Below, in pieces: positions 34,743-55,100 of a DNA stretch of 64,000 nucleotides. Origin of the DNA: Megasphaera hominis (lineage in GTDB: Bacteria; Bacillota; Negativicutes; Veillonellales; Megasphaeraceae); NCBI RefSeq assembly GCF_014269395.1, contig NZ_JACOGK010000009.1, positions 23,301 to 87,300 of the forward strand, written 5' to 3'. A program made the position numbers and the translations under genes. The notes beneath the pieces were generated by a model, which ran no database searches, was not told the origin of the DNA, and worked only from the letters and a program-made list of their open reading frames with translations. Position 1 is the first letter of the stretch; every line of letters begins with the position of its first letter.

Positions 34743-35801
34743 ATGATCAAACGCAGAAACACACTGCCCGTTCAGGTTGGCAACGTTACCATTGGTGGTA
34801 CGGCCCCTATTTCGGTGCAGACCATGTCTACAGTGAGCCCGGCCGATACGGCCAAGGCCATTGCCGATGCCCAGCGTTTGGCCGGCTTTGGCGCGGAAAT
34901 CATCCGCTTTGCCGTCCCGGACATGGCTGCTGCCAAAGGGCTGAAAGACGTCGTCGCTGCGTCGCCTGTGCCCATCGTGGCAGATATACATTTTGACTAC
35001 CGCCTGGCTCTGGCATCCGTCGATAGCGGGGTCCAGGCTTTGCGCATCAATCCGGGCAATATCGGTGGTGACGACAAGGTCGTCCAAGTCGTCGACAAGG
35101 TACGGCCCAAGAATATTCCCATCCGCATCGGTATCAACAGCGGCTCCTTACCGGCCGATATTCTGGCTGCGTACGGTGGTCATCCGACGGCAGAAGGCAT
35201 GGTAGAAGGGGCTTTGCGGCATATCCGCATCCTGGAACGGATGGACTATCCGAACATGGTTATTTCCCTGAAATCATCACAGGTACCGCTCATGATCGAG
35301 GCGTATGAACGCCTGGCAGAACAGGTCCCGTATGCCCTGCACTTAGGCGTTACGGAAGCCGGCCTGATTCGCGAAGGCAGTATCAAATCGGCCATCGGTA
35401 TTGGCACGCTTTTGTATGAAGGGATTGGCGATACAATCCGCGTTTCCCTCACGGATGATCCGGCAGAAGAAATCAAAGCCGGACAGACCATTCTCAGCTC
35501 CCTGGGGTTGCGTGAGTTTGGCCCGACTTTGGTCAGCTGTCCCACGTGCGGCCGCACGCAGGTCCAGCTCATTAGCCTGGCCAAACAGGTAGAAGAAGCA
35601 CTCAAGGAGATTCAAAAGCCTCTCCACGTAGCTGTTATGGGCTGTGTCGTCAACGGTCCCGGAGAAGCACGGGAAGCCGATTTCGGTATTGCCGGCGGTA
35701 ACGGCAAGGGCATCGTCTTTTCCCACGGTGAAGTATTGCGTACTGTGCCGGAAGACCAGCTCGTCGCCACGCTCTTGGAAGAAATCAAAAAATCCTTGTA
35801 A
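34743..35801 (+). CDS. ispG: 4-hydroxy-3-methylbut-2-enyl-diphosphate synthase IspG
   Basis: A 352-residue iron-sulfur enzyme of the MEP isoprenoid pathway (also called GcpE). It has the TIM-barrel part with IGGTAPISVQTMSTV near residues 18-32 and IHFDYRLAL near 81-89, and the C-terminal 4Fe-4S part with CPTCGR near 262-267 and VMGCVVNGPGEA near 295-306. GAGG precedes the ATG. It supplies precursors used by uppS upstream. The run from uppS to ispG probably forms one operon. Confidence 0.95.
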   Translation: MIKRRNTLPVQVGNVTIGGTAPISVQTMSTVSPADTAKAIADAQRLAGFGAEIIRFAVPDMAAAKGLKDVVAASPVPIVADIHFDYRLALASVDSGVQALRINPGNIGGDDKVVQVVDKVRPKNIPIRIGINSGSLPADILAAYGGHPTAEGMVEGALRHIRILERMDYPNMVISLKSSQVPLMIEAYERLAEQVPYALHLGVTEAGLIREGSIKSAIGIGTLLYEGIGDTIRVSLTDDPAEEIKAGQTILSSLGLREFGPTLVSCPTCGRTQVQLISLAKQVEEALKEIQKPLHVAVMGCVVNGPGEAREADFGIAGGNGKGIVFSHGEVLRTVPEDQLVATLLEEIKKSL

Positions 35802-41594: not shown

Positions 41595-41699
41595 AAGTGA
41601 GTAAAATACATAAAAATGCAATTCTACCAGGCACGATAGGTCTGCCGTTATTCACCTATGCAGTCATACGGGCCTTCTAGATATCAAGGGAGGAATTCT

Positions 41700-43715
41700 A
41701 TGAGGAACCGACTGGAGCGGCTACGCTCTCTTACTACATTTAATACCTGGATTACGATTCCGGGACTGCTCATTATAGCGGCTGTCGTTATTGGCTGCGC
41801 CTGTTTCCCTGCTACGACAGGGGCTTACCTGGATGCAGCTAAGCAATGGATCACTACATCCTGGGGCTGGCTCTTTATTTTGGGCGTCTCGTTTTTTGTT
41901 ATATTTTTACTCGTTCTTTGTGTCAGCAACTTGGGCAGTATCCGCCTGGGAAATGATGATGAAGAACCGGAATATCCTTTTTTCTCGTGGATTGCCATGT
42001 TGTTTGCCGCCGGTATGGGCATTGGTCTCATGTACTTTGGTGTAGCAGAACCGATTTCGCACTATGCCATGCCGCTTCATGAAGGCTTATCGGCTAACGC
42101 CCAGGCAAAAACGGCTATGCTCAACACGTTCTTTCACTGGGGGATTCATGCCTGGGCTATTTACGGCGTCCTCGGCCTGGCCCTGGCCTATTTTGGCTTC
42201 CGCTATCACGTGCCCCTTACCGTACGCAGCGCCTTTTATCCGCTCTTGCGGGATAAAGTAAATGGTCCTATTGGCATCTTTATCGATGTTGTTGCTTTGT
42301 CCTGTACGATTTTTGGTATTACGACGACATTGGGCTATGGTTCTATGCAGCTGGCCTCAGGCTTCAAGGAAGTAGGACTGATCAGTGAAGCTCATATGGG
42401 CACGCTGATCTGCATTATTATCGTCTTTATGACCTGCGCCATCCTTTCTGCCATTTCCGGTGTCAGTAAAGGCGTGCGCTGCCTGAGCGAAATCAACCTG
42501 GGCCTGGCCTTATTTCTCATGCTTTTTGTACTGGCAGTAGGCCCGACGATTATCATCCTCAACGATTTTACTGAAAACCTGGGTGCGTACTTGTCCAACA
42601 TTATACCGCTCAGTTTCCGCACCTTTGCGTACGATCCGCAAAACGAAGGCTGGTTCACGTCGTGGACCGTCGTTTACTGGGCCTGGTGGATTTCCTGGGC
42701 ACCTTTTGTCGGTATGTTTATCGCCAAGATTTCCCGCGGCCGGACCGTACGGGAATTTATCTTGGGCGTTCTTCTGGTGCCGACGGTATTCAATCTCTTG
42801 TGGATGACTGTCTTTGGGAATACGGCAATCTGGGCAGATCAGGTCAATGGCGGCACCCTTTCAGCCATGGCCAGCCAGACGGAAGCACTCTTGTTTACGT
42901 TCTTGAATTATTTGCCTTTCAGCAAGATTACATCAATTATGTCCATTGTGATCATTACGCTGTTCTTCGTCACATCTGCCGATTCGGGTATCTTCGTCAT
43001 CAACGGGATTGCCTCGTCTGGTGGTATCAAATTCCCTAAATGGCAGAGTGCTTTTTGGGGTATCGTCTTGGCTGCCCTGGCTATCTTATTGCTTTATACA
43101 GGCGGTTTAGGTGCACTGCAGGCCACGACCATGGTTATGTCCCTGCCGTTTTTAGTGATTTTGATCGTCCTGTGTTTCTGCCTGCTTAAAGGCCTGGTCA
43201 TCGATGAAGATTACTTTGGCCGCGGTCTCTCGGCGTGCACGTCCTACTGGACAGGCTCGTTCTGGAAGGATCGCCTGAATTCCATGGTCAGCCATCCGGA
43301 TCTGAACAACGCCAAGCAGTTCATTCAAGAAACTGCCGTACCAGCCTTTGAAGAGTTGTCCGAAGAAATCAAGAAGTACGGTGTGGAAGCCAAGGTACAT
43401 TACGATGTCATGGGACCGTTACCACGGGCCGAATTCGTCATTGAACAACCGTCCATGCGCAACTTCATTTACGGCATCCAATGCGAACGTAACGCTGTGT
43501 CGGAATTTGCCGCCAATAATGATTCCATGCCGCAAATCGACGATAATATCATTTATATCCCTATGAGCTACTTTGCCGATGGCCGCATTGGTTATCCTGT
43601 ACGTTACATGAAAAAGGATGAATTGATCATCGATGTCCTGCGGCAGTACGATCGCTTTACGAAACTCGCAGCTGATAAAAAACACTTGCTGTTCCTGTAT
43701 GAACCGGAAGACTAG
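41700..43715 (+). CDS. BCCT-family betaine/carnitine/choline transporter
   Basis: A 671-residue transporter with twelve predicted helices. The family motifs are clear: GMGIGLMYFGVAEPISHY near residues 104-121 and the helix-8 signature YWAWWISWAPFVGMFIAKISRGRT near 326-349, whose tryptophans form the substrate box. The last 150 residues form a soluble C-terminal domain, longer than in OpuD and like that of BetT. It likely imports betaine, choline or carnitine with Na+ or H+. AGGGAGG before ATG 41700 decides the start over 41658. Confidence 0.92.
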   Translation: MRNRLERLRSLTTFNTWITIPGLLIIAAVVIGCACFPATTGAYLDAAKQWITTSWGWLFILGVSFFVIFLLVLCVSNLGSIRLGNDDEEPEYPFFSWIAMLFAAGMGIGLMYFGVAEPISHYAMPLHEGLSANAQAKTAMLNTFFHWGIHAWAIYGVLGLALAYFGFRYHVPLTVRSAFYPLLRDKVNGPIGIFIDVVALSCTIFGITTTLGYGSMQLASGFKEVGLISEAHMGTLICIIIVFMTCAILSAISGVSKGVRCLSEINLGLALFLMLFVLAVGPTIIILNDFTENLGAYLSNIIPLSFRTFAYDPQNEGWFTSWTVVYWAWWISWAPFVGMFIAKISRGRTVREFILGVLLVPTVFNLLWMTVFGNTAIWADQVNGGTLSAMASQTEALLFTFLNYLPFSKITSIMSIVIITLFFVTSADSGIFVINGIASSGGIKFPKWQSAFWGIVLAALAILLLYTGGLGALQATTMVMSLPFLVILIVLCFCLLKGLVIDEDYFGRGLSACTSYWTGSFWKDRLNSMVSHPDLNNAKQFIQETAVPAFEELSEEIKKYGVEAKVHYDVMGPLPRAEFVIEQPSMRNFIYGIQCERNAVSEFAANNDSMPQIDDNIIYIPMSYFADGRIGYPVRYMKKDELIIDVLRQYDRFTKLAADKKHLLFLYEPED

Positions 43716-48304: not shown

Positions 48305-48327
48305 CTGAAAAATTAACAAATTAATTA

Positions 48328-48369
48328 CCCAAAAACACTCCCTGTCACTATACAGGGAGTGTTTTTGGG
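48328..48369. terminator. Bidirectional intrinsic terminator
   Basis: CCCAAAAACACTCCCTGT and ACAGGGAGTGTTTTTGGG form a perfect 18 bp stem with a loop of 6 bases, between convergent genes. Confidence 0.9.
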
Positions 48370-48423
48370 TTATGCATACTACATTACTGCAGGTATGCTG
48401 TATGAGAGAAGTTCGATGTAACC

Positions 48424-49926
48424 TTAGTGCATGATGATAGCAACAGCGTACATGACCAGTGAAAGAGCAAATACACCATAGGCACCCATTTGCCAATGTC
48501 TGTACTGTTTATCCAGGGCTTTCTTTTCTTCTGCCGTAGGAGCTACCATTTCGGAACGATATTCTTCTTCAGACATGACCGGTTTCGTCCGTTTCCGTAC
48601 GAAGAAGAAATAATATAAGAGACATAAGATACAAAAACCAATGTTATAGGGAAGAGCATCCATATCAACGGAGAGAACCATCAATACAGCAAATGTAACA
48701 ACGCTGAAGCAGGCACCAAAGATTCCCAGCGGCGCTTTGTAATAGCGCGGCAGTTCCGGACTGTTTTTCTTCAACATGATATACGAAATGAAGCCAATAA
48801 TGTAGCAGATCATCTGAGAAAAAGCGCACATGGCAGCGATCAGGGCGATAGAACCAGTCAGAATCAGGAGAATAGCGACGACACTGACGGTAATAACGGA
48901 AATATACGGATTCTTATATTTCGGATGGAGCTTACCGAAAATCTTTGGGAAGCAACCGTCTTCGGCCATAACGTACATATACCGGGATGGACCGGCAATG
49001 GTCGGATTCATAGCACCAATGTTACCACCAAAGGTAATGCCTACGCAGAGGATGATCAGTGGCAGGCCAACGATACCGGCCAGCTGTAACGACGTCGCAT
49101 ACGGTGCTGCCGAATCAGTCAGCATGGGCTGCGATTCCAGCGGTGTCAGACCGGTGATGAACCAGAAGAACAAGGCATTAATGGCAAAGACAATAAATGG
49201 TGTCAGCGTCAAGGCACGAGGAATGTTGATTTGTGGGAATTTGACTTCGCCGCCCATCCCAACAAGCGTTTCAAAACCGGCGAAGCACCACCAAACCATG
49301 AGGATAACTTTGGCAAAGACGAAGAAGTCGGCCGGAATCCCACTCATGAGAGGAATGAAATTTGCGAAATCTACATCCTTTAAGACGACGCAGAACCAGA
49401 TTGCCGACATAGTCCAAAAGAAATACATAAAAGCGTTTTGTACTTTACCTGTGAATTCGACGCCCCGGTAGTTGATATAACCAAATACAGCGATGCAAAC
49501 GACAGCGGCTACGCGATCATCAACATCATAGGGAATACCGATAGAAATAAGAAGCCATTTAAAATAACTGGCAAAGGCTAAAGCGCTGGCACCAGCAATC
49601 CCAATCATGGCGACAGTGCAGTTCCAGCTGCAAAAAACAGCCGTCGGATAGTTGAGTGCCCGTTTCGCATAGGAATAGGTGCCACCGGCAAAAGGTAAGG
49701 AACCGCCCATTTCACCGTATAAAGCGGCTGGCCAAAGAACCAATAAAAACGAAATAATCGTTGCGACGATGATGGAACTCCCAACAATACCTACCTGCGA
49801 TGAACCAACGGTAAACAAACCGACACCAATGATCGATCCTGCGGAAATGGTGATACATTCCGGTAGTCCCCAGGCTCGCGTTAAATGCTCTGTCGTTGCC
49901 GGAGATGTTTCTGTTGAGTTTTGCAT
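48424..49926 (-). CDS. APC-superfamily amino-acid permease
   Basis: A 500-residue permease with about twelve helices. The first helix carries the substrate loop ISAGSIIGVGLFTVG near residues 26-40, and the sixth the FAGFETLVGMGGEVKFPQ motif near 221-238, as in amino-acid/polyamine/organocation carriers. The C-terminal 45 residues form a charged soluble tail followed by one more helix. GGAGGG precedes the ATG. It is divergent from an AraC-type regulator and two kinases, so it probably brings in the compound those genes process. The substrate cannot be read from sequence. Confidence 0.88.
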   Translation of the reverse strand: MQNSTETSPATTEHLTRAWGLPECITISAGSIIGVGLFTVGSSQVGIVGSSIIVATIISFLLVLWPAALYGEMGGSLPFAGGTYSYAKRALNYPTAVFCSWNCTVAMIGIAGASALAFASYFKWLLISIGIPYDVDDRVAAVVCIAVFGYINYRGVEFTGKVQNAFMYFFWTMSAIWFCVVLKDVDFANFIPLMSGIPADFFVFAKVILMVWWCFAGFETLVGMGGEVKFPQINIPRALTLTPFIVFAINALFFWFITGLTPLESQPMLTDSAAPYATSLQLAGIVGLPLIILCVGITFGGNIGAMNPTIAGPSRYMYVMAEDGCFPKIFGKLHPKYKNPYISVITVSVVAILLILTGSIALIAAMCAFSQMICYIIGFISYIMLKKNSPELPRYYKAPLGIFGACFSVVTFAVLMVLSVDMDALPYNIGFCILCLLYYFFFVRKRTKPVMSEEEYRSEMVAPTAEEKKALDKQYRHWQMGAYGVFALSLVMYAVAIIMH

Positions 49927-49988
49927 AATCTGTACCCTCCTAATATGAAATCAGCAATCGTAAAGATCGAGAAATAAAATACCCTGTC

Positions 49989-50717
49989 GTGCCAACAGGC
50001 TGCGTGACACTCGTATTTATGCTAGGGCCACATGCCCATGGCGAAGTGATGGGCTGTAATACAGTTTTAAGAGAATTAGTCGTGCCACCCAAAATGACCG
50101 CCTATTGTGTGCGCTTACGTGCAGGAGCATTTCGTTTCTTTTCTCATATCGATGTTAGCGAGCTGACAGACCAGACCGTTCCCATGGGGCAGTGGGTACC
50201 GAATCTGGAAAAACTATGCCAGCCCATGCGCTATGCAGAATCGTTTCATGAAAGAAATATCATTTTACAACGCTTCGTAGACAAGCTTGACGGCAAGTGT
50301 TTTTATATCAACGAAAAATTACAGAAAAGCATCGATTTTATAAAAGATCGTGAAGGTATCCTGAAAATCCAAAGCCTCGCAGATGAAGTAGAATGTACAA
50401 CCCGCTATTTAAGCCGGATTTTTCTGCAACATGTCGGTGTTGCTACCAAGATGTATTGCCAGATATATCAACTGAATGCGTCTCTGCAATCTATTTTGGA
50501 AACCCGTCCCAAATCACTTTTGGATACATCAATTACCTATGGCTATGTAGACCAGACGCATATGAACCGGGTCTATCGCAAATTTCTCTTTTGTACAGCT
50601 TATGAATTAAAAAACTATGGCTTAAAAGATATGAGCCGCATTGAAAGGCTAATGGATCCAGATCCATCTATGCTCGAATTCAAGCCCCCTTATTTTCTCC
50701 GTGCAACTACCTTGTAG
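49989..50717 (+). CDS. AraC-family transcriptional regulator
   Basis: The protein is 242 residues from GTG 49989. It begins in the middle of an AraC N-terminal ligand domain (PTGCVTLVFMLGPHAHG resembles the DUF6597 motif) and ends with two helix-turn-helix motifs (LKIQSLADEVECTTRYLSRIF near 123-143 and SITYGYVDQTHMNRVYRKF near 179-197). The frame is open for 15 more codons upstream (to a TAA at 49941) with no good start, and no strong ribosome site is seen. The N-terminus may therefore be shortened. It most likely controls the permease and the two kinases that flank it. Confidence 0.72.
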   Translation: MPTGCVTLVFMLGPHAHGEVMGCNTVLRELVVPPKMTAYCVRLRAGAFRFFSHIDVSELTDQTVPMGQWVPNLEKLCQPMRYAESFHERNIILQRFVDKLDGKCFYINEKLQKSIDFIKDREGILKIQSLADEVECTTRYLSRIFLQHVGVATKMYCQIYQLNASLQSILETRPKSLLDTSITYGYVDQTHMNRVYRKFLFCTAYELKNYGLKDMSRIERLMDPDPSMLEFKPPYFLRATTL

Positions 50718-50813
50718 TGGCGCTTTACATATAGCATGCCCTGTTTTGGGTCGTGCTATTTTTTTGCCATTTTTGGCAGCATATCAAAAATATATAGTAG
50801 GAGGGATTGTAGA

Positions 50814-52313
50814 ATGGAAAAAAAATATTACTTAGGCATTGATCAAGGCACGACGGGTGTTACGGCTATTCTTTTTGACCGCCACTGGAACCAGGCATCC
50901 CGCGGATATTGTGAAGAAAAACTATTTTATCCGCAAGACGGGTGGGTCGAACATGACGCTGATGACGTCTGGCAGTGTGTACAGCGGGCAGTCTTTTCAG
51001 CTATGGAACAGGTAGGTGCGACGGGCAACGAAATTATCAGCGTCGGCATTGATCACGAAGGAGAAACAGTCGTACTTTGGGATAAGAAAACCGGAAGGTC
51101 CGTATATCATGCTTTAGTATGGCAAGACAGAAGAACTGCAGAGTATTGCGATACAATACGGTCAAAATATGGTAAGATAATTAGTGAGCGCACTCATTTA
51201 CCTGTAGATTCGTATTTTAGCGCCACCAAATTACAGTGGCTGTTACAGCATGTAGAAAACGCATCGTCATTATTGCAGCAAGGACGCTTATGTGCCGGTA
51301 ACATGGATGCCTGGATACTTTGGAAGATGTCTGGCGGCAAGATTCATAGTACAGATGGTTCGACTGCCTCCCGTACTATGTTGTATGATGTTCAAAAACA
51401 GGACTGGGCTGAAGATTTGTTGGAACTCTTCGGTATTCCCAAGCAAATCATGCCGACCATCTGCGACAGCAATCATGTCTTCGGCAATACGGATTCGGCT
51501 TCCTTCTTAGGTATTGCTGCGCCCATCAGTGGTGTTTTAAATGACCAGCAGGCTGCTTTATTGGGCCAGGGCTGCACCATGCCCGGTAAAATCAAGACAA
51601 CGTACGGTACAGGCTGCTTCATGTTTATGAATACGGGCAATTATATCGTCGATTCTCAAAACGGCATCTTGCCAACGGTTGCCTGGCGTATAGACGGAAA
51701 AGAAACATACGCTCTGGACGGAGGCGTATATATTTCAGGTGCAGCAACACAATGGCTGCGTGACGGTCTGCAGATTATCGAAGCAGCTGCCGATACAGAT
51801 GCCATTGCCAGCAGTATAGACAATACAAATGGCGTGTACTTTGTGCCCGCTTTTACAGGTTTAGCGGCACCCTACTGGGATTCCTACGCCCGTGGCATGA
51901 TGATTGGCATTACGGGCAGCACAACCCGGGAAGATATCGTCCGGGCCACGCTGGAATCGACAGCCTATCAGGTCAAGGATTTGCTGGATGTCATGGAAAA
52001 AGATACACAAAGCAAAATTCCCTTGATGCGCTGCGATGGTGGCGCCAGCAATAATCAGTTCTTAATGCAGTTCCAATCCGATATTCTGGGTATCCCTGTC
52101 GAAGTACCTGTCGTCAAAGAAACGACAGCCTTAGGGGCAGCCTTTATGGCCGCCTTAGGCATTGGCGAATTCAATTCCTTAGATGACGTAAAATATACGT
52201 GGAAATTAGAACGCCGGTACGAACCGACTTTCAAACAGGACCAACGGGAATACATGCTTCGCGAATGGCATCGGGCCGTAGAACGGTCCCGCAATTGGGC
52301 TGTAAATTCGTAA
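50814..52313 (+). CDS. FGGY-family kinase, glycerol-kinase-like (paralogue 1)
   Basis: A 499-residue kinase close to GlpK in length and pattern. The phosphate loop YLGIDQGTTGVTA has Asp10, the catalytic base region NDQQAALLGQG has Asp244 and Gln245, and TYGTGCFMFMNTG lies near 263-275. In E. coli GlpK, Arg83 and Glu84 bind glycerol; here the matching positions are Gly83 and Glu84 (DHEGET). Loss of that arginine argues for a different polyol or keto substrate. ATG 50814 has AGGAGGG upstream. A close paralogue follows after 21 bases. FGGY kinases phosphorylate sugars or polyols in the cytoplasm. Confidence 0.88.
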   Translation: MEKKYYLGIDQGTTGVTAILFDRHWNQASRGYCEEKLFYPQDGWVEHDADDVWQCVQRAVFSAMEQVGATGNEIISVGIDHEGETVVLWDKKTGRSVYHALVWQDRRTAEYCDTIRSKYGKIISERTHLPVDSYFSATKLQWLLQHVENASSLLQQGRLCAGNMDAWILWKMSGGKIHSTDGSTASRTMLYDVQKQDWAEDLLELFGIPKQIMPTICDSNHVFGNTDSASFLGIAAPISGVLNDQQAALLGQGCTMPGKIKTTYGTGCFMFMNTGNYIVDSQNGILPTVAWRIDGKETYALDGGVYISGAATQWLRDGLQIIEAAADTDAIASSIDNTNGVYFVPAFTGLAAPYWDSYARGMMIGITGSTTREDIVRATLESTAYQVKDLLDVMEKDTQSKIPLMRCDGGASNNQFLMQFQSDILGIPVEVPVVKETTALGAAFMAALGIGEFNSLDDVKYTWKLERRYEPTFKQDQREYMLREWHRAVERSRNWAVNS

Positions 52314-52334
52314 AATGTAAGGATGTTATAAATA

Positions 52335-53828
52335 ATGAAAAAATATTACATGGGTATTGACCAAGGTACAACAGGTACGCGAACGTTATTATTTGACCGT
52401 GCATGGAATGTCATTGCCAGCGGTTACGAAGCGTTGCCTGTCATTTCAGAAAAAAAGGGCTGGGCAGAACACCAGGTGGAAGACATTTGGCGTTCCGTAC
52501 TAGGTTCAACGGCCAAGGCCATGAAGGCTGCCAATGCGGAAACGGACTCTATCTTGTCCATCGGCATTAACCATGAAGGGGAATCGGTCATTGTTTGGGA
52601 TTCCCGAACAGGTGAGCCTGTCTACCCTTGTATTGTTTGGCAGGATAAACGTAACGTCAGAGAAATTGAAGAAATTGCCTGGCAATATAACGACCAGGTC
52701 AAAGAAAAAACAGGACTCATGGTCGACACCTATTTTAGTGCCGCCAAGTATGCCTGGATTATGGCACATGTGCCCAAAGCAAAAGAATTAATGGAAGAAA
52801 ACCGGCTCATGGCCGGTACTCTCGACACGTGGCTCATTTGGAAGATGAGCCACTGCCGGGTGTACGTCACAGAACCCTCAACGGCGTCGCGTACCCTCTT
52901 ATACAATGTAAAAGAAAAGAAATGGGATGATGAGCTAGCAGAGATTTTTGGTTTACAAGCTGATGTGCTGCCGGAAATCTGTAACAGCGCCCAGATCTAT
53001 GGTGAAACGGACCCCCTGGATTTTTTAGGTATCCAGGCTCCTATTGCCGGCATCTTAGTTGACCAGCAGGCCGCCTTAATTGGCCAGGGCTGTATCCATC
53101 CGGGTATGATCAAGACAACCTATGGCACAGGCTGTTTCATGCTAATGAACACCGGTAACGTATGCGTTGATTCGCAGTATGGCCTGCTGCCTACCGTAGC
53201 CTGGCAGGTAAACGGCAATACGACATACGCCTTAGATGGCGGTGTCTATACGACCGGGGCGGCTACTAAATGGCTGAGCGATTCTCTCCAAATCATGGAA
53301 TCACCTAAAGACAGCGAAGCCTTGGCGAAATCTATCCCCGATAACGGCGGCTTGTACTTTGTACCGGCTTTTAATGGCCTGGCCGCTCCTCATTGGGACT
53401 CGTACGCCTCGGGCATGATGATCGGCATCAATACACATACGACACGAGCGCATGTCGTACGAGCTGCCCTGGAAGCGACGGCTTACCAGGTAAACGACGT
53501 CTTAGCATCCATGGCAGGGGATACGTCTATTCCCATCACCGTCATGCGTTGTAATGGTGCAGCGACACAAAACAGTTTTCTCATGCAATTTCAGTCAGAT
53601 ATCTTAGGGATCCCTCTAGAATTACCTGTTATTGAAGAAAGTACGGCTTTTGGTGCAGCTTTTATGGGCGCCGTAGGCATTGGTGACTATGATTCGTTGC
53701 AGGCTATTGAGGAATTTTGGCAAGTCCGCAAGGTCTATGAACCATCTATGCCGGCTGATGAACGCGATGCCTTGGTCTATGAGTGGCATAGATCCGTGCA
53801 ACGAGCTAAATTTTGGATTGAAACGTAG
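52335..53828 (+). CDS. FGGY-family kinase, glycerol-kinase-like (paralogue 2)
   Basis: A 497-residue paralogue of the preceding gene. The phosphate loop MGIDQGTTGTRT, the DQQAALIGQG catalytic block and TYGTGCFMLMNTG are intact. The GlpK Arg83 position is again glycine (Gly82 in NHEGES), while Glu83, the substrate-contacting Tyr in DTYFSAAK and the Trp in IVWQDKR are kept. Two kinases with the same change in one operon suggest two related substrates or a heteromeric enzyme. No terminator separates it from the first. It ends before a separate promoter for the aminotransferase. Confidence 0.88.
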   Translation: MKKYYMGIDQGTTGTRTLLFDRAWNVIASGYEALPVISEKKGWAEHQVEDIWRSVLGSTAKAMKAANAETDSILSIGINHEGESVIVWDSRTGEPVYPCIVWQDKRNVREIEEIAWQYNDQVKEKTGLMVDTYFSAAKYAWIMAHVPKAKELMEENRLMAGTLDTWLIWKMSHCRVYVTEPSTASRTLLYNVKEKKWDDELAEIFGLQADVLPEICNSAQIYGETDPLDFLGIQAPIAGILVDQQAALIGQGCIHPGMIKTTYGTGCFMLMNTGNVCVDSQYGLLPTVAWQVNGNTTYALDGGVYTTGAATKWLSDSLQIMESPKDSEALAKSIPDNGGLYFVPAFNGLAAPHWDSYASGMMIGINTHTTRAHVVRAALEATAYQVNDVLASMAGDTSIPITVMRCNGAATQNSFLMQFQSDILGIPLELPVIEESTAFGAAFMGAVGIGDYDSLQAIEEFWQVRKVYEPSMPADERDALVYEWHRSVQRAKFWIET

Positions 53829-53878
53829 GCTAGCTGGAATGCATAGATATTAGTAGTTCTTGTTTGTACCAATTTCAT

Positions 53879-53907
53879 TGTTACTCCTTATACGGGGCTT
53901 TATAATA
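53879..53907 (+). promoter_or_regulatory. Promoter of the aminotransferase gene
   Basis: TTGTTA (53879-53884), 17 bp, TATAAT (53902-53907). The short direct repeat ATATCAAAGGAA/ATTATCAAAGGAA follows near 53912-53933 and could bind a regulator. Confidence 0.7.
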
Positions 53908-54002
53908 CAATTATCAAAGGAATATCAAAGGAACAAACCGGTTGCATCCTATTGATTAAATTGTGCAAAAGTATTTATTTTCCGTATAGGAGGCAGTTTA
54001 CA

Positions 54003-55100
54003 ATGAGTATGACAAAATTATTCAGCCCTGGTCCCGTAATGGTAAAAGATAATGTTCGCCACGCCCTTCTGCACTATGATATTTGTCACCGTAGCCCCGA
54101 ATTTGAAGAAATGTTTCAGGATACGCAAGCAAAAATCTTAAAGTTATTCCGGGCAGACGAATCCTATTACAGCCTCGTAGTTTCCGGATCTGGCACAGCC
54201 AGCAATGAAACAGTACTGTCTTCCTTGTTTAAAGGTGACGAAGCCATCCTCTTAGTACACAACGGTGTCTTTGGCGAACGCTTGCTCGAACTCATCGATA
54301 AATACAAGATTCCTCTCATCGATGCTGATTTCCCATGGGCCACCTTGCCTGATCTCAATGTCATCGAACGGAAACTCGCCGACAATCCCCTGATCAAAGT
54401 TGTTGCCGTCGTTTACCATGAAACCTCGACTGGTATGATTAACCCGATTCCGGAAATCGGCAAGCTTTGCAAGAAATATGGCAAGATTCTCTATGTAGAC
54501 TGCGTATCGGCTGCTGCCGGTGAAGATATCGACGTCGTTCGTGACAACATCGACATTTGCACGTCCGTTGGCGGTAAATGCCTGGGTGCATTCCCCGGCA
54601 GTGCATATATCTGCGCTAAGAAAGAAATTCTGGAAAGCCTTACAGCAGATCAGTGCAAAAACGTCTATCTGAGCCTTTACAAACACTATCAGAGTGCTGT
54701 TACAGCTCACCAGACACCGAACACACCGAACGTCAACCTGTTTTGGCCGCTCAACGTAGCTCTGACCAATATTGTAGAAGATGAAACCCTCGAAGGCCGT
54801 ATCGCTAGATATAAAGCCTGCGCTACTATCATTCGTGAAGGTTTGGCCAAATTAGGCTGCCGTTTCCTCCTGCAGGATCACCTGTCCAACACGGTTACCT
54901 CCGTATTCCTGCCGGCTGGCGTAGATGCGCCGACGTTCCTGGCTGAAATGGCTAAACGCGGCTATACGTTCTATATCGGCAAAGGCGATTATGGCAAACA
55001 AAACATGATTCAGGTTGCCAACATGGGTGAAATCTATGAACAGGATTGCTACAACATGCTGGAAGTATTTGAAACAGTTGTCAACAAGTTGAAAAAATAA
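54003..55100 (+). CDS. Class V aminotransferase, PhnW-like
   Basis: A 365-residue PLP enzyme, the length of 2-aminoethylphosphonate-pyruvate aminotransferase. The start LFSPGPVMVKDNVRHAL with CHRSPEF, the SGSGTASNETVLSSL cofactor loop near residues 62-76, the aspartate in YVDCVSAAAGED near 168-179 and the PLP lysine Lys192 in GGKCLGAFPGSAY are in place. Related members use serine, alanine or phosphonates. No phosphonate genes lie near, so the amino donor or acceptor is open. AGGAGG before ATG 54003 sets the start. It sits behind two kinases and an amino-acid permease. Confidence 0.85.
   Translation: MSMTKLFSPGPVMVKDNVRHALLHYDICHRSPEFEEMFQDTQAKILKLFRADESYYSLVVSGSGTASNETVLSSLFKGDEAILLVHNGVFGERLLELIDKYKIPLIDADFPWATLPDLNVIERKLADNPLIKVVAVVYHETSTGMINPIPEIGKLCKKYGKILYVDCVSAAAGEDIDVVRDNIDICTSVGGKCLGAFPGSAYICAKKEILESLTADQCKNVYLSLYKHYQSAVTAHQTPNTPNVNLFWPLNVALTNIVEDETLEGRIARYKACATIIREGLAKLGCRFLLQDHLSNTVTSVFLPAGVDAPTFLAEMAKRGYTFYIGKGDYGKQNMIQVANMGEIYEQDCYNMLEVFETVVNKLKK

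Follow-up and report, generated by a model that had tools for sequence, protein, structure and literature searches.

A recurrent gene set of GlpK-like kinases and a class V PLP enzyme in Megasphaera hominis, probably for catabolism of an amino alcohol

Several described systems resemble in part the gene cluster reported here, which lies in a stretch of 64,000 nucleotides from Megasphaera hominis (assembly GCF_014269395.1, contig NZ_JACOGK010000009.1, positions 23,301 to 87,300 of the forward strand; hereafter the window) and comprises genes for an APC-superfamily permease, an AraC-family regulator, two FGGY kinases (K1 and K2) and a class V pyridoxal phosphate (PLP) enzyme (AT). A survey of FGGY kinases, in the part of its text available, puts the number of sugars or polyols used as substrates at nine or more and describes the glycerol kinase GlpK as remarkably unchanged (PMC3245297). 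The Aut microcompartment cluster contains, according to excerpts of its description, a permease, an aminotransferase-type enzyme and a phosphotransferase for 1-amino-2-propanol (PMC6620236). A class III ethanolamine-phosphate phospho-lyase is mentioned in an excerpt of a further paper (PMC8154272).

The cluster of the window shares features with each of these systems and differs from all of them. Like GlpK, K1 and K2 are full-length two-domain FGGY kinases and keep four of the five GlpK signature residues; on the other hand, Arg83 is replaced by Gly and Thr80 by Asp or Asn, the kinases form a separate branch with 100/100 support, and the set contains no glycerol genes. AT is a class V fold-type I PLP enzyme whose closest solved relatives by sequence are PhnW and PntC, but two arginines of these enzymes are replaced (by Gln and Pro), its scores lie under the cut-offs of PhnW-type models, and the phosphonatase PhnX mostly does not exceed its own cut-off in AT-carrying genomes. 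With the Eut system the cluster shares an EutH-type carrier, which adjoins AT or the kinase in some relatives, whereas neither EutBC nor a shell protein is found among the five genes (Pfam), and few AT-carrying genomes possess EutB. The overall logic of amine permease, regulator, phosphotransferase and aminotransferase-type PLP enzyme is that of Aut, as far as the excerpts describe it; however, in Aut the phosphotransferase is of the APH type, and alcohol and aldehyde dehydrogenases as well as shell proteins are present (PMC6620236), whereas the five genes encode FGGY kinases and a class V enzyme and none of the other components. In Pfam, none of the five proteins matches a bacterial microcompartment shell protein or an APH-type phosphotransferase. 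The likeness to the class III phospho-lyase (PMC8154272) is confined to the proposed reaction, the elimination of phosphate and ammonia from phosphoethanolamine, as AT matches only Aminotran_5 (class V) and no class III model in Pfam. The proposed route would be analogous to Aut and to the class III phospho-lyase, yet built from unrelated enzymes. We did not equate the Clostridioides difficile 'ethanolamine kinase' (ETNK) with the cluster; the excerpt of the respective paper mentions neither a glycerol kinase nor an aminotransferase (PMC8241443). A search of the open-access literature, with subscription papers outside its coverage, found no description of this gene set.

Recurrence of the gene set

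The cluster represents a real and recurrent, albeit rare, gene set that probably has a coherent catabolic function, for an amino alcohol. In an AT-first scan of one genome per species (84,980 species), a 22-row AT alignment and two peptide patterns yielded 72 loci, i.e. 59 with an AT at least 50% identical to that of the window, 12 with a more distant one, and L072 with a short piece only (L and G numbers are our labels for loci and genomes). The resulting co-occurrence counts hold among AT carriers. Locus architecture was derived by tblastn, as gene calling favoured antisense open reading frames (ORFs; protein clusters C16 and C21 cover AT or the kinase). Of the 59 loci, 38 carry a GlpK-like kinase no more than 6 kb from AT, 31 of them with a distance of 349 bp or less between the two matches, and permease, regulator and kinase are all near AT in 21/59. 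The 38 kinase loci include three from spirochaetes (L015, L016, L057) with kinases only 35-39% identical to the query; L022 and L024 were scored as kinase-less, yet begin with a kinase fragment cut at the contig end. Two Anaerotignum loci (L007, L009) show by tblastn the gene order of the window with both kinases present, and the gene set also occurs in Oscillospiraceae, Anaerotignaceae, Anaerovoracaceae and Synergistaceae, the AraC matches in the Anaerovoracaceae being only 24-29% identical. Because the same genes recur in these lineages, their association is beyond chance.

A first-pass annotation of the window had read these genes as a possible catabolic system for an amino-alcohol or amino-polyol. 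The neighbourhood survey supports a coherent cluster, probably for an amino alcohol, whose genes travel together: the homologues do not occur mostly apart and the kinases are probably no plain glycerol kinases (see below). The twin kinases, in contrast, are no general feature: two kinases are located within 6 kb of AT in only 4/38 loci (L002, L007, L009, L034).

AT is rare, being present in 5 of 391 genomes sampled from the class of Anaerotignum neopropionicum. Searches that started from the kinase gave hits in 5/198, 3/200 and 1/398 genomes, nine distinct genomes in total, and AT is linked to the kinase in all of them except G721; the E-value limits of these searches were strict, hits were few, and the centres of the searches, chosen as AT carriers, account for three of the nine genomes (G015, G002, G006). 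G002 has a second such kinase on another contig without AT. On plasmids only matches at the level of glycerol kinases were found, all below 60% identity.

The comparison of the loci revealed no further enzyme common to all. A short hydrophobic protein, C5, is encoded beside the permease in 12 loci (L019, L023, L026, L029, L031, L032, L033, L038, L039, L042, L046, L047); it was rejected as a pathway enzyme, given its short hydrophobic character and the lack of a Pfam or NCBIfam match for the one member tested, and may be a carrier subunit. GAPDH, which stands beside AT in L019, L023 and L024, was likewise dropped, as that of L023 is grouped with rpoN and pyruvate kinase.

GlpK-like kinases without Arg83

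The signature of GlpK, described as identical across GlpK clusters in the available part of the FGGY survey, consists of Arg83, Glu84, Tyr135, Asp245 and Phe270 (PMC3245297), and Arg83 contacts glycerol according to the excerpt of a second paper (PMC2680290). In all 45 full-length, non-duplicate cluster kinases (K1, K2 and 43 others; nine duplicates and one short match were left out) this arginine is replaced by Gly. Position 80 holds Asp in 36, Asn in seven, Ser in one (L027) and Ala in one (L011), while Glu84, Trp103, Tyr135, Asp245 and Phe270 are retained in 45/45. Gly83 is also found in 120/120 K2 homologues among the matches listed. The carrier genomes also yielded 24 glycerol kinases from outside these loci, and each of them has kept Arg83 and Thr80. 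In a tree of 70 rows, a branch with 100/100 support splits off the 25 Arg83 kinases, including that of E. coli. The seven Asn80 kinases form a supported K2 clade with the K2 of the window inside; K1 and K2, 53% identical to each other, may be old paralogues. The three spirochaete kinases have Cys in place of Gln246, and their loci (L015, L016, L057) combine this Gly83/Cys246 kinase with a type I phosphodiesterase and AT; in L016 an opine dehydrogenase adjoins the kinase.

Another reading of the cluster would be that plain glycerol kinases stand beside an unrelated permease and a 2-aminoethylphosphonate (AEP) aminotransferase. K1 is 44% identical to E. coli GlpK and passes the NCBIfam equivalog model for glycerol kinase (TIGR01311, 615 bits at a cut-off of 590.35), but K2 remains below it with 577 bits. 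Moreover, a separate Arg83 kinase was found in 23 of the 26 carrier genomes searched; for G005, G012 and G022 there was no other match near glycerol-kinase level among the matches listed. From the loss of Arg83, the separate Arg83 kinases and the distinct tree branch we rejected the assignment as plain glycerol kinases: the Gly83 cluster kinases are probably not glycerol kinases. Together with the features of AT described below, this makes the glycerol kinase/AEP reading highly improbable, even though AT scores 275.9 bits with the PhnW-AepZ model. As judged from the alignment, the change of Arg83, which faces the hydroxyls of the substrate, to Gly and of the nearby Thr80 to Asp or Asn would suit a positively charged amine as substrate. 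If this holds true, an amino-alcohol kinase derived from GlpK would represent a new FGGY specificity. Several cluster kinases carry the name 'glycerol kinase' in their source records; these names would be easy to correct, and the claim easy to test.

The class V PLP enzyme and a candidate route

AT scores below the cut-offs of all PhnW-type NCBIfam models, namely TIGR03301 (PhnW-AepZ; 275.9 of 360.8 bits), TIGR02326 (203 of 400.8) and NF010006 (206.5 of 296). In the alignment of 66 AT rows (54 near, 12 distant; six duplicates were left out), Gln337 invariably takes the position of PhnW Arg340, which binds the keto-acid carboxylate in the relatives of AT. A second arginine common to PhnW and PntC (in 'RFT') is Pro in 66/66. 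The catalytic Lys, Asp and a His-Arg pair are kept throughout. This pair sits at the place of SerC His41-Arg42, which bind phosphate in SerC, and since 2dr1 has the pair too, it counts as weak evidence. Phosphoethanolamine, in structure a phosphoserine that lacks the carboxylate, would be a suitable substrate for an enzyme that has lost its carboxylate-binding arginine but retained a phosphate site. By these residues AT is not PhnW, and Gln337 favours a lyase and speaks against an ordinary keto-acid transaminase. An AlphaFold2 model of AT has a mean pLDDT of 87.4.

The survey of EutB, EutH and PhnX covered 33 AT-carrying genomes, which represent 34 of the 72 loci; some lack a Gly83 kinase and many are metagenome-assembled, so that absences may be gaps. 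Two of these 33 genomes, G029 and G032 from the C. difficile group, have a PhnX match over the cut-off; weak matches occur in 29/33 and in 14/14 control genomes, none of the controls being over the cut-off. Neither Pfam nor NCBIfam revealed a phosphonate-cleaving enzyme among the five proteins of the cluster, the remaining window not having been searched gene by gene. AEP breakdown, which the first-pass annotation had considered unlikely, was rejected on the grounds of the AT scores, the Gln for Arg340 and the scarcity of PhnX.

AT also occurs in a recurring second set (L001, L010, L014, L071, L152) with a DeoR regulator, a XylB-like FGGY kinase and an MlrC/M81 protein, which is joined by a peptide-type ABC transporter in L010, L071 and L152. 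The distant relatives L059, L060 and L062 have extra N-terminal parts. PDB entry 9os7 chain A, called a methionine--tRNA ligase, matches class V AT over about 290 residues. Protein cluster C30 follows AT in L011 and L065, and its L011 member is a methionyl-tRNA synthetase by Pfam.

A clue to the substrate comes from EutH (PF04346). In the Oscillibacter loci L003 and L051 its gene lies directly 3' of AT, and in three genomes of the C. difficile group (L044, L045, L048) as well as in G334 it is a neighbour of the kinase gene. Among the 33 AT-carrying genomes, EutB is present in five and absent in 28; EutH is found anywhere in 16, and without EutB in 11, although several EutH proteins of the EutB-less genomes share no more than 25-39% identity with the query and have different gene neighbours. 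Ethanolamine leads as candidate substrate, with serinol and other amino alcohols behind it.

The gene set, its co-occurrence, the changed residues, the EutH neighbours and the truncated regulator (see below) are observations; as to the substrate, the order of the steps and lyase rather than transaminase chemistry, we infer the following scheme. The APC carrier would import the amino alcohol, a task that EutH would share or take over in some relatives. The Gly83 kinases K1 and K2 would phosphorylate its hydroxyl group, which would give phosphoethanolamine, and AT would eliminate phosphate and ammonia to yield acetaldehyde. General aldehyde and alcohol dehydrogenases could then use the acetaldehyde, and the route would run without the B12-dependent Eut enzymes. 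An amino alcohol of some kind, phosphorylated in the process, is fairly likely to be the substrate. The version with ethanolamine and a phospho-lyase was chosen because EutH speaks for the one and Gln337 for the other; it is tentative and may well prove wrong. Permease, kinase and phospho-lyase would make up a complete route from ethanolamine to acetaldehyde, whereas with a transaminase in place of the lyase the set would suffice for serinol, leading to dihydroxyacetone phosphate, but not for ethanolamine. The idea of the first-pass annotation that the compound is transaminated and phosphorylated to enter glycolysis is only one option: Gln337 speaks against an ordinary keto-acid transaminase, and since the EutH neighbours indicate ethanolamine, whose product need not enter glycolysis, such an exit is not required.

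In a rival route close to that of the first-pass annotation, serinol or another amino-propanediol could be imported, phosphorylated by the Gly83 kinases and relieved of its amino group by AT, which would transfer it to a keto acid and deliver dihydroxyacetone phosphate to glycolysis. Serinol is the amine analogue of glycerol and would fit well into a GlpK pocket lacking one arginine, the set would need no further enzymes, and AT is nearest to transaminases; but with EutH neighbours that indicate ethanolamine, with Gln337 in place of the arginine that binds the keto-acid carboxylate in relatives, and with serinol being a rare natural compound, we regard this route as unlikely. Alternatively, AT could act as a transaminase on phosphoethanolamine and a keto acid, giving glycolaldehyde phosphate and an amino acid, so that the cluster would mainly supply nitrogen. 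This is quite unlikely in view of Gln337, and no enzyme for glycolaldehyde phosphate is common to the loci, the GAPDH of L023 standing in the other context mentioned above; the EutH neighbours, the similarity of AT to AEP transaminases and the resemblance of phosphoethanolamine to AEP would nevertheless agree with it.

Several observations weigh against the route from ethanolamine through a phospho-lyase. EutH is beside AT or the kinase in only 5/59 AT loci, and because two genomes of the C. difficile group carry EutB and a second EutH as well, the cluster EutH may transport another amine. The nearest solved relatives of AT are transaminases. Two distant relatives with the same Gln, one fused to a MobA-like nucleotidyltransferase (L062) and one preceding a CDP-alcohol phosphatidyltransferase (L059), occupy settings more in keeping with a biosynthetic transaminase than with a lyase. 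Other AT relatives, 69-78% identical, are found with DeoR and MlrC, plus a XylB-like kinase in L001, L010, L014 and L071 but not in L012, so that the AT clade may not be confined to a single pathway. The Gly83 kinase of G721 stands without AT, and the genes after it encode a glycerol-3-phosphate-oxidase-like FAD protein (nearest to the type 2 oxidase, 273 bits at a cut-off of 460), a second FAD protein and DUF1667. With a stronger glycerol-kinase match elsewhere in that genome, this operon looks like a polyol-type one. Since the kinases of L011 (Ala80) and L027 (Ser80) lack Asp or Asn at position 80 and are adjoined by iron alcohol dehydrogenases, the members of the cluster may not all share one substrate. 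G721 and the 69-78% identical AT relatives, which have no Gly83-type kinase, would also agree with a cluster that joins two uses, in which the Gly83 kinases would phosphorylate a polyol or other sugar alcohol that is not an amine, and AT would have a separate amine as its substrate. The tight linkage of kinase and AT makes such an arrangement very unlikely.

Should the ethanolamine and phospho-lyase version hold, it would combine a new isofunctional FGGY group, amino-alcohol O-kinases with Arg83 changed to Gly, with a class V phospho-lyase to form an ethanolamine pathway of gut anaerobes free of B12 and microcompartments, a proposition that goes further and is doubtful at present. To our knowledge, a phospho-lyase of class V aminotransferase descent would be the first of its kind. 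Ethanolamine is a common gut nutrient, and genomes are usually credited with its use on the basis of eut genes, a criterion by which carriers of this cluster would go unnoticed.

Cluster layout and the truncated regulator

The five genes were established by ORF calls, Pfam and NCBIfam (Table 1). They lie where the first-pass annotation had placed them; its divergent layout is disturbed, however, as the regulator is 5'-truncated and the divergent promoter region has been lost.

Table 1. Features of the cluster and its surroundings in the window
Feature	Position	Strand	Basis or remark
Terminator-like stem, 19 pairs, downstream of permease	48327..48370	-	Pattern match only
APC-superfamily permease (putative importer)	48424..49926	-	Pfam AA_permease_2, 3.6e-40
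AraC-family regulator, 5'-truncated	49944..50717	+	HTH_18 and DUF6597; annotatable start GTG 49989
Kinase K1, FGGY/GlpK-like, Gly83 and Asp80 (E. coli positions)	50814..52313	+	Pfam/NCBIfam
Kinase K2, FGGY/GlpK-like, Gly83 and Asn80	52335..53828	+	Pfam/NCBIfam; supported 7-row K2 clade
Sigma-70-like promoter match between K2 and AT, chance level	53878..53906	+	Motif scan
AT, class V PLP enzyme, PhnW-like, Gln for PhnW Arg340; proposed phospho-lyase	54003 (ATG)..55100	+	Pfam Aminotran_5

The homology of the regulator starts at 49944, immediately after a stop codon, at a point that corresponds to residue 51 of the L009 regulator, residue 50 of that of L006 and residue 60 of the more distant one of L020, and its DUF6597 match begins at profile position 32. 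The gap between the permease and regulator matches measures 18 bp in the window; in 17 relatives that share the divergent order it spans 229-1226 bp, in some of them with a small ORF inside. Positions 49926-49989 form a deletion-like junction where the permease start and its ribosome-binding site lie right against internal sequence of the AraC gene. By this comparison, the regulator has lost about 50 N-terminal codons plus the shared divergent promoter region, and regulation of the cluster is probably disturbed in this genome.

AT had also been credited with a promoter of its own. This could not be maintained, as the single sigma-70-like match between K2 and AT scores 10/12 in a scan that returned 12 sites versus 13.3 expected by chance, and kinase and AT are closely spaced in most relatives (see above). 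Terminator-like stems are equally at chance level (seven found versus 7.3 expected), that downstream of the permease being the longest of the seven. No specific NCBIfam carrier model reaches its cut-off with the permease; that for ethanolamine permease, TIGR00908, scores 95 versus 381.75 bits.

From reading the translations, the cluster is flanked by a recombinase/UmuC/YolD stretch on one side and a YadA-like adhesin on the other. The protein cluster of K2 is recorded on three contigs and that of the IspG of the window (34743-35801) on 102, two counts that are not strictly comparable; the five-gene set may be accessory in the host species. A BCCT-family carrier of the betaine/choline type is encoded at 41658-43715, 5 kb upstream of the cluster.

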